From Candidatus Obscuribacterales bacterium (GTDB taxonomy: Bacteria; Cyanobacteriota; Vampirovibrionia; Obscuribacterales; Obscuribacteraceae), in the NCBI GenBank assembly GCA_019744775.1, contig JAIETZ010000004.1, forward strand, positions 496,001 through 560,000: a stretch of 64,000 nucleotides of DNA, written 5' to 3'. Positions 39,173 to 41,409 of the stretch are shown here, piece after piece. The position numbers and the translations under genes were made by a program. The notes beneath the pieces are model-generated. The model saw only the letters and a list, made by a program, of their open reading frames with translations. It was not told where the DNA came from and did no database searches. Every line of letters starts with the position of its first letter. Within the stretch, counting starts at the first letter, position 1.

Positions 39173-39204
39173 AGAAAGGGCGCATATACTGCGCCCTTTC
39201 TTTT
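39173..39204 (+). terminator. Rho-independent terminator after korB
   Basis: A perfect 12-base stem (AGAAAGGGCGCA and TGCGCCCTTTCT) with loop TATAC is followed by TTT. Its core GGGCGCAT...GCGCCC resembles the dispersed repeats. It overlaps the end of the convergent HicB-like gene by two bases. Confidence 0.85.
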
Positions 39205-39685
39205 AGACTGCTTTTTTGCGAATCGCTTTACTTTTGCTTTTTTCCAAACGCTTCTGAACTATGCGTTGAATGTCGTCACCCATGTCCTTTAGTGCTTCGT
39301 ACAGAGTCATATCTTGCGCGTCAACAACAGTGCCACCCGATTGCGCTTGATAAAAAAACAGAAGAAAATCCAGCAACTCCCCCTGCGTACAAACAAGTTC
39401 CTTCGCTAGACTCTTCAACTGTTTCTTAGTCTTTACTTTCACATCTGCGTTAAAAGCGATTCTTCCTTTTGATGGTCTGCCTGGCTTGTCATAAATATGT
39501 TTCAACCGACCCTCTAGGTAAGATTCGTAAGCGGTATCAACATGACTTTCAAAATTGCTGTAGGCAGCTTGCCTAGTTTCACCAATACCAGCAGCAACTT
39601 CCAATAGTGGAGACTCAACAACGAAACAGTCATCGTCATTACTGAAATAACAAACGGCGGTATTCAAAATGGCTTTCTTATTCAC
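39203..39685 (-). CDS. HicB-like/RHH antitoxin-like protein without a partner toxin
   Basis: The protein is about 160 residues. The N-terminal part (YFSNDDDCFVVESPLLEVAAGIGETRQAAYSNFESHVDTAYESYLEG) has the HicB-type fold order, a degraded RNase H-like antitoxin domain; the middle (GRIAFNADVKVKTKKQLKSLAKELVCTQGELLDFLLFFY) resembles a ribbon-helix-helix. No HicA or other toxin gene lies beside it. The start is unsure: a strong promoter (39696-39724) puts the transcript start near 39689, so the GTG at 39683-39685 would be nearly leaderless; ATG 39697 or 39700 would require an upstream promoter. It could be a free regulator descended from an antitoxin. Confidence 0.65.
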   Translation of the reverse strand: MNKKAILNTAVCYFSNDDDCFVVESPLLEVAAGIGETRQAAYSNFESHVDTAYESYLEGRLKHIYDKPGRPSKGRIAFNADVKVKTKKQLKSLAKELVCTQGELLDFLLFFYQAQSGGTVVDAQDMTLYEALKDMGDDIQRIVQKRLEKSKSKAIRKKAV

Positions 39686-39695
39686 CTTGCTTCCC

Positions 39696-39724
39696 ATCAT
39701 AATATTGTCTTGACAATATGTCAA
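39696..39724 (-). promoter_or_regulatory. Consensus promoter with palindromic operator in the spacer
   Basis: On the minus strand TTGACA (39719-39724) and TATGAT (39696-39701) are separated by exactly 17 bases, and that spacer (TATTGTCAAGACAATAT) is inside an inverted repeat with arms ATATTGTC and GACAATAT (39702-39719). A protein bound there would block polymerase. It is the expected site of autoregulation by the gene at 39203-39685. Confidence 0.7.
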
Positions 39725-39852: not shown

Positions 39853-41409
39853 GTGTCTAGCCATAAAGAGACAGAGAGCAGTAAAGAGACTCTGCTTCAA
39901 GAGTTGACTTCTCTGCCTGGCGACTTCGTCCAGGCTGCCGTCAGCGCTGCCTATTGGAACCCCGTCAGAGGTGTCACGCAGCTAAAAGACCGCATTTACC
40001 ACCCAATCAGGCCAGGCAGCCTAGAAGACGTTCAGTCCGAGCATAGGCCATCGGCATTCGGCAGTTTGCGTTGGCACGCTGAGCAGCTGGGCGGCGCAGT
40101 CGGTACAATGCTTCCCTACTGCATATTGAACAAAGCAGTTGGACTCGTCGGAGTAGCAAAAATCCTTACGCCTTTCGCCACAGGCGCTCTTATGGAAGGA
40201 GTTTTCAGACCAATTGAGAGAACCGAAGGTGATTTCAACAAGGCGCGCATTGTGAACGCTCTTACCGGCATGGCAACTTTCGGTACACTTGGACACTTGC
40301 CCGGCTATTTGAAATCACGAGATGTTATGCGTTTTCAAATTGATCAGCCTTGGCTCATAAATTCATTTACCAGTGATCTCAAACGTCATCTTGTATCCGG
40401 CGTTGCAGCGGGAGTAGTTGATACTGAATCCAGATCACTTTTTTCAGGCAAAGGATTGAATACAAACGCCGAAGAAATTATTCAATCAGTCTATTCCTAC
40501 GGTGCGCTTGGCGGACTGATGTGCAGTGCAAGCGAAGTTGGACCATATCTAAGCAAAGGCCGCACAATAAACGACATAGTGCAAACAAGTCCTTATTTGA
40601 GCGAACGAGCAAAATTAGATCCTGTAGCCAAAGAATTAATTGTCGAGTATGGCGAACAACGAGTTAGAGCAAAAAATAGATCTGCAGCGCGCGATATCTA
40701 CGATCTCTTTGCTCACGCAAACGTAGCTGAGGCAATGGAATTAAAAAACAATTCGATGAACGGGACAATTTCTTTCACTGAAAAGCAGTCACATCCGGTA
40801 GAAGAACTTCTACGTACTAACCTGCCGATTGAGAAATTCCCTTTTTATTCATACCACCCGACAAGTGCCTATGCCGAAGCTTTCAAAAACTCGTCTAAAG
40901 AAGCAACTGGTTTTCTTGGTGTCGGCTTTGACTCGGTTGTAATCAAGCTAAAAGATGGTGGAGCGCTAAAAATCAGCTCGCAATTGCGAGATGCTGAAAT
41001 GGGCCAAAGAATTTTTGATATGCCGATTCTAGAAGAAGGACTATTCGATACAAAGAAAATTGCCGATGCAATATTGGAAAACCCGCAAGCTTCCGAATGG
41101 CAGAAGATTCAATTACGCTTACTGCATGAGCCCAAACGTGGTGTCAACTATATTGTGCAACCAGAGGCAATGACAAAGATTCCCATTAAACTGATTCAAC
41201 GATTCCGTGAGCATATGCCCAAAATCGGCTATGAGTTTTGGGACTGGCAGCATGACCAATTAGGTTATTACGATGGGCGGATTGTATTGCTTGATTATTT
41301 TGCCGTCAAATCGGCAGAGGTGTTAAAAGCCGAACGGGATAAAAAGGCTAGGGAAGACAACCAACGACCAATTGCCACACGTCTCGAGGAAATTGTGGAG
41401 AAGTTATAG
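39853..41409 (+). CDS. Unknown 518-residue protein with a possible kinase-like C-terminus
   Basis: GTG 39853 has GGGAGG upstream. There is no signal peptide. The N-terminal half (about 1-210) has Ala/Gly-rich hydrophobic segments (LGGAVGTMLPYCILNKAVGLVGVA, ILTPFATGALMEGVF). The C-terminal third (about 340-500) has FLGVGFDSVVIKLKDGGALKIS, ending near EFWDWQHDQLGYYDGRIVLLDYFAV, an order like the nucleotide-loop strand and late acidic segment of a kinase fold (Gly-x-Gly-x2-Ser/Val, VxIKL, D-x-F). The usual HRD and DFG motifs are absent, so it would be degenerate. Function is not known. Downstream lies a barrel-family gene 79 bases later on the same strand. Confidence 0.6.
   Translation: MSSHKETESSKETLLQELTSLPGDFVQAAVSAAYWNPVRGVTQLKDRIYHPIRPGSLEDVQSEHRPSAFGSLRWHAEQLGGAVGTMLPYCILNKAVGLVGVAKILTPFATGALMEGVFRPIERTEGDFNKARIVNALTGMATFGTLGHLPGYLKSRDVMRFQIDQPWLINSFTSDLKRHLVSGVAAGVVDTESRSLFSGKGLNTNAEEIIQSVYSYGALGGLMCSASEVGPYLSKGRTINDIVQTSPYLSERAKLDPVAKELIVEYGEQRVRAKNRSAARDIYDLFAHANVAEAMELKNNSMNGTISFTEKQSHPVEELLRTNLPIEKFPFYSYHPTSAYAEAFKNSSKEATGFLGVGFDSVVIKLKDGGALKISSQLRDAEMGQRIFDMPILEEGLFDTKKIADAILENPQASEWQKIQLRLLHEPKRGVNYIVQPEAMTKIPIKLIQRFREHMPKIGYEFWDWQHDQLGYYDGRIVLLDYFAVKSAEVLKAERDKKAREDNQRPIATRLEEIVEKL

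Follow-up and report, generated by a model that had tools for sequence, protein, structure and literature searches.

A promoter-like sequence with a palindromic spacer precedes an orphan HicB-like gene in a Candidatus Obscuribacterales genome

Results

On the minus strand of the window (the whole 64,000-nt stretch of a Candidatus Obscuribacterales genome analyzed here), we found a promoter-like sequence, TTGACATATTGTCAAGACAATATTATGAT, at 39724-39696. It consists of the -35 hexamer TTGACA (39719-39724) and the -10 hexamer TATGAT (39696-39701) separated by 17 nt, the near-consensus arrangement that the first-pass annotation had described, and both hexamers align without gaps to those of homologous operons. 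This is the single TTGACA-17-TATGAT in the window (0.01 expected by chance) and the top promoter-like site nearby, matching at 11 of 12 hexamer bases. Between the hexamers lies a palindrome, ATATTGTC-AA-GACAATAT (39702-39719), whose two perfect 8-nt arms (39702-39709 and 39712-39719) stand 2 nt apart. At 18 bp, compared with a spacer of 17 nt, the palindrome takes up the whole spacer plus the last base of the -35 hexamer; the earlier description of it as lying exactly in the spacer is off by that one base. The window contains 16 perfect inverted repeats of such size, compared with 8.7 expected under a first-order model, so the palindrome is unremarkable by itself and its fit between the hexamers is the unusual part. 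When its own 100 nt were shuffled for comparison, the window palindrome had a p value of 0.035.

The promoter-like sequence is followed by a gene for a HicB-like protein of 160 aa (39203-39685, minus strand), with a GTG start at 39685 and a TAA stop at 39205-39203, within a reading frame that is open from 39766 to 39203. The codon corresponding to GTG 39685 is where homologs begin, with MNKK and often behind a purine-rich stretch, in agreement with the start codon annotated at first pass. We rejected two other in-frame starts, ATG at 39700 and at 39697, because both overlap the -10 hexamer and the homologs start at the GTG position. The -10 hexamer and the GTG are 10 nt apart. Transcription would be expected to start 5-10 nt past the -10 hexamer (39686-39691, minus strand), and from this position we infer a leader of 1-6 nt; a nearly leaderless message is plausible. 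Downstream, a perfect inverted repeat between the convergent porB-like gene and the HicB-like gene (39177-39197) forms a hairpin that is probably a terminator shared by both. On the other side lies a divergent gene of 518 aa (39853-41409); one congener conserves the 70 bp upstream of it, and another lacks the gene. Joint control of this gene was considered and rejected, since the congener in which the 70 bp are conserved has no hicB.

Sequence searches of Pfam, NCBIfam, and PDB returned no HicB name for the protein, and Pfam and NCBIfam gave no match with a useful score; the HicB identification is therefore based on fold comparison and genome context. We built an AF2 model from ten homologs (mean pLDDT 74.7). 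Its N-terminal domain (residues 1-72; 39470-39685) is beta-beta-beta-alpha and matches the partial RNase H fold of HicB chains with Z scores from 8.5 to 5.6; the best VIA-align chains were TTHA0281 (2dsy, Z 8.5) and Burkholderia pseudomallei HicB (6g1c, Z 6.6), and Escherichia coli HicB gave Z 6.2-6.4 (6.2 for 6hpb). We take TTHA0281 to be a HicB-type protein, on which its entry title is silent. The C-terminal domain (residues 75-118; 39332-39463) matches the operator-bound ribbon-helix-helix (RHH) domain of PutA (2rbf, Z 6.4, rmsd 2.1 over 44 residues), with low model confidence in the strand region. The top Foldseek matches were all HicB-type N-terminal domains, with weak E values (best 0.095), and RHH_1 was weakly matched by 2 of 25 family members. 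The best reading of the modeled protein is HicB-like with a C-terminal RHH DNA-binding domain, and the predicted fold thus agrees with the identity proposed at first pass.

Homologs of the gene were found in 16 of the 60 genomes searched (its own genome counted). Most of these come from the same family, and homologs also occur in one more distant member of the class. Named homolog records were mostly Candidatus Obscuribacterales MAGs, and searches of viral contigs, phages, and plasmids found none. The family is divergent, and we found it here only in the class of Candidatus Obscuribacterales and relatives. Most homologs have a short gene (about 57-120 codons) upstream, in many cases with an overlap or a gap of a few bases, and both paralogs in the genome itself are likewise preceded by a small HicA-like gene. 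Profile and fold comparison both identify the relatives' partner gene as a homolog of HicA: HicA_toxin (PF07927) was weakly matched by 3 of 17 partner proteins (best E value 0.0031), the partner profile aligned with canonical HicA at 90.7% probability in hhalign, and the partner model, alpha-beta-beta-beta-alpha, placed HicA chains at ranks 2-6 (Z 5.0-4.3), low scores that carry weight only through the mutual agreement of the HicA matches. Separately, L020 encodes a 421-aa protein (206-1471) upstream of the hicB-like gene, seemingly with a HicA-like segment at its end, a possible fusion.

At the window locus, neither the partner profile nor HicA_toxin detected a partner gene. The partner profile had two matches in the 4.1-Mb genome, each adjoining a paralog of the window gene, and it found no unpaired HicA-like partner elsewhere; three canonical HicA genes are present in this genome, all on other contigs. 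Because both partner-profile matches sit beside paralogs, the window gene is a true orphan. It had been called one at first pass, and the adjacent toxin gene named there as counter-evidence was looked for and not found beside it.

Alignment with canonical HicA shows that the partners belonging to the nearest relatives of the window gene have Glu (TKE, STE) in place of the GSH-motif catalytic His (His28 in Yersinia pestis HicA3; PMC11594946); other partners in the family retain His. Partners with Glu in the form TKE-W are encoded at L036:1353-1577, L035:2215-2430, L037:3771-4001, L039:3770-3988, and L044:3792-4001. For L016, L018, and L028 the alignment is less certain around this position.

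Next, we compared upstream regions, taking those of the operons or, for orphans, those of the genes themselves. The promoters of eleven close relatives, the window copy included, align without gaps as TTGnnn-17-TATnnt. In this alignment, TGCC-type repeats occur ahead of the -35 hexamer and in the spacer in most pairs, and the closest paired promoters carry direct repeats with this other core, TGCC, in place of the palindrome; the window operator is therefore not conserved by sequence. Long inverted repeats occur upstream of L014 (AACAACAGAATAAT-AG-ATTATTCTGTTGTT), L021 (TAATTTAAATTAC-T-GTAATTTAAATTA), and the orphans L011 (ATTCCTGCCAT-N11-ATGGCAGGAAT) and L026 (AATAATAACTGCTAGC-N16-GCTAGCATTTATTATT, with mismatches). 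Inverted repeats were significant relative to shuffles (p < 0.05) in 8 of 27 upstream regions, compared with 3 of 56 control stretches, and the combined p value was 0.0014 for the 27 regions and 0.77 for the controls; in the same shuffle test, 19 of the 27 regions had no significant inverted repeat. This excess upstream of family members is among the evidence on which we propose the window palindrome as an operator. The distance from the -10 hexamer is 11 nt to the ATG in the orphan L011 and 12 nt to the hicA-like ATG in the paired L024, so very short leaders are not peculiar to the orphan state.

One congener (G001) likewise has the 518-aa gene next to the porB-like gene, with a different insert between them and no hicB. 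This insert (G001:C54, L069:919-3108) resembles a group II intron carrying a reverse transcriptase. In the other (G002), neither hicB nor the 518-aa gene is present at the corresponding site. Both are incomplete genomes, with the site itself covered in each. With hicB missing from the site in both congeners, its distribution is patchy, through either a gain in this genome or a loss in the others, and it has the look of a leftover more than of a regulator that has become fixed. The tree joins the window gene to its closest relative, L032 (G010:C44:30833-31042), from another genus, with support of 100/95. L032 is also an orphan, at a different site; its N-terminal domain is 71-74% identical to that of the window gene, and it ends after this domain, with no trace of an RHH found behind it. 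A promoter-like site precedes L032, and such a palindrome is absent there. The gene adjoins a DNA adenine methylase-like gene and an XRE-type gene. In another relative, L030, the partner gene is reduced to a stump. The promoter of the relatives reads into the hicA-like gene and here leads straight into hicB; deletion of a hicA-like gene between promoter and hicB would yield the layout seen in the window.

The first-pass annotation had proposed that the protein is a domesticated regulator with a regulon, and had suggested searching the genome for the same palindrome near other promoters. In exact and relaxed searches of the 4.1-Mb genome, the full 18-bp palindrome had no other match with fewer than two mismatches; a match with two mismatches lies within a gene, and the core ATTGTC-N2-GACAAT has four other exact matches, all within long ORFs. 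No regulon emerged from these searches.

Discussion

The locus probably represents an orphan HicB-type antitoxin gene that has lost its toxin gene and whose product represses its own expression through the palindrome in the promoter spacer. The gene would encode an antitoxin of the HicAB-like family found in this class; a dimer of the protein would bind ATATTGTC-N2-GACAATAT via the C-terminal RHH domain and keep RNA polymerase off its own strong promoter. With the hicA-like gene missing between promoter and hicB, transcription would pass straight into hicB and leave only a very short leader, and the likeliest remaining role of the protein would be to neutralize related toxins in trans, or none. 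DNA binding, repression, and toxin deletion are what we infer at this locus, and self-repression through the spacer palindrome is, from the sequence, the well-supported and best-supported mechanism, given the repeat excess in the family, the promoter alignment, and the known palindromic operators of HicB. HicB represses hicAB by binding palindromic operators (PMC10865869), and these can overlap the -10 hexamer (PMC11594946). The tight self-repression suggested at first pass would fit such a promoter-operator, which is of the kind used for it. Overall, the promoter-operator ahead of this orphan HicB-like gene is real and coherent, and the locus is a commonplace type of toxin-antitoxin leftover.

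Whether the protein still has a use is a separate matter, and two answers are each possible, at rather less than even odds. In one, the orphan HicB serves as an antidote in trans (anti-addiction): its N-terminal domain neutralizes HicA-like proteins of paralogous pairs or incoming elements, and the operator sets the dose only. Being a matter of what the protein is used for, this is compatible with autorepression. In its favor, each of the two paralogs in the same genome is paired with a HicA-like gene, orphan antitoxins have been proposed to act in this way (PMC7192599), and the orphan L032 retains the N-terminal domain and has lost the RHH, as if the toxin-binding part alone mattered; however, the window protein is only 45-50% identical to the paralogs, which makes cross-recognition doubtful, and L032 is perhaps just a dying gene. 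In the other, the window gene is what is left of a HicAB-like module in decay and no longer has a function. Its patchy presence, its truncated nearest relative, and the toxin remnant in L030 are consistent with this, although its reading frame, both predicted domains, and the near-consensus promoter are intact.

We consider two further explanations unlikely, though not to the same degree. The palindrome could be bound by another regulator or be a chance inverted repeat in a promoter, as the number of repeats of such size in the window and the modest p value against shuffles would allow; its placement between the hexamers, the RHH in the gene product, and the family-wide excess of repeats in the same place speak against this. 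A domesticated regulator with targets beyond itself is less likely still, indeed improbable. The predicted RHH is intact, the promoter is strong, and HicB is among the common orphan antitoxins, which have been suggested to be transcriptional regulators (PMC12654330), but the palindrome is effectively unique in the genome, the four core matches fall within long ORFs, and the gene is absent from the site in both congeners. Beyond the predicted RHH, we found nothing in favor of this idea, and it is not supported.

The partners with Glu in place of the catalytic His are a more unusual thread than the promoter-operator. Tentatively, and with low confidence, such pairs may consist of a regulator and a co-regulator, or have other chemistry, instead of being an RNase toxin with its antidote; the orphan would then mark the end point of this path, with nothing left but the DNA-binding half that controls itself. 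More broadly, the locus offers a testable case of an antitoxin gene outliving its toxin: within one class of bacteria there are relatives that keep the pair, orphans whose promoters are related, a single toxin remnant, and an orphan that lacks the DNA-binding domain. In addition, it brings to light a divergent HicAB family, missed by the Pfam and NCBIfam HicB models, part of which has lost the HicA catalytic residue.

Among known systems, the closest comparison is with hicAB class 4, as in B. pseudomallei and Y. pestis hicA3B3 (PMC10865869, PMC11594946). The window protein is alike in combining a HicB N-terminal domain with an RHH, its relatives share the order of toxin then antitoxin, and the palindromic operator over the core promoter, here proposed from sequence, would be a further likeness. 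Unlike these systems, the window locus has no toxin gene, its sequence is too distant for the Pfam and NCBIfam HicB models, and the partner proteins of its nearest relatives have no catalytic His. Solitary hicB genes in Methanosarcina (PMC10865869) and other orphan antitoxins (PMC12654330, PMC7192599) similarly have no neighboring toxin; in contrast to these, the promoter, the putative operator, and the kinship to paired promoters can here be read from the sequence.
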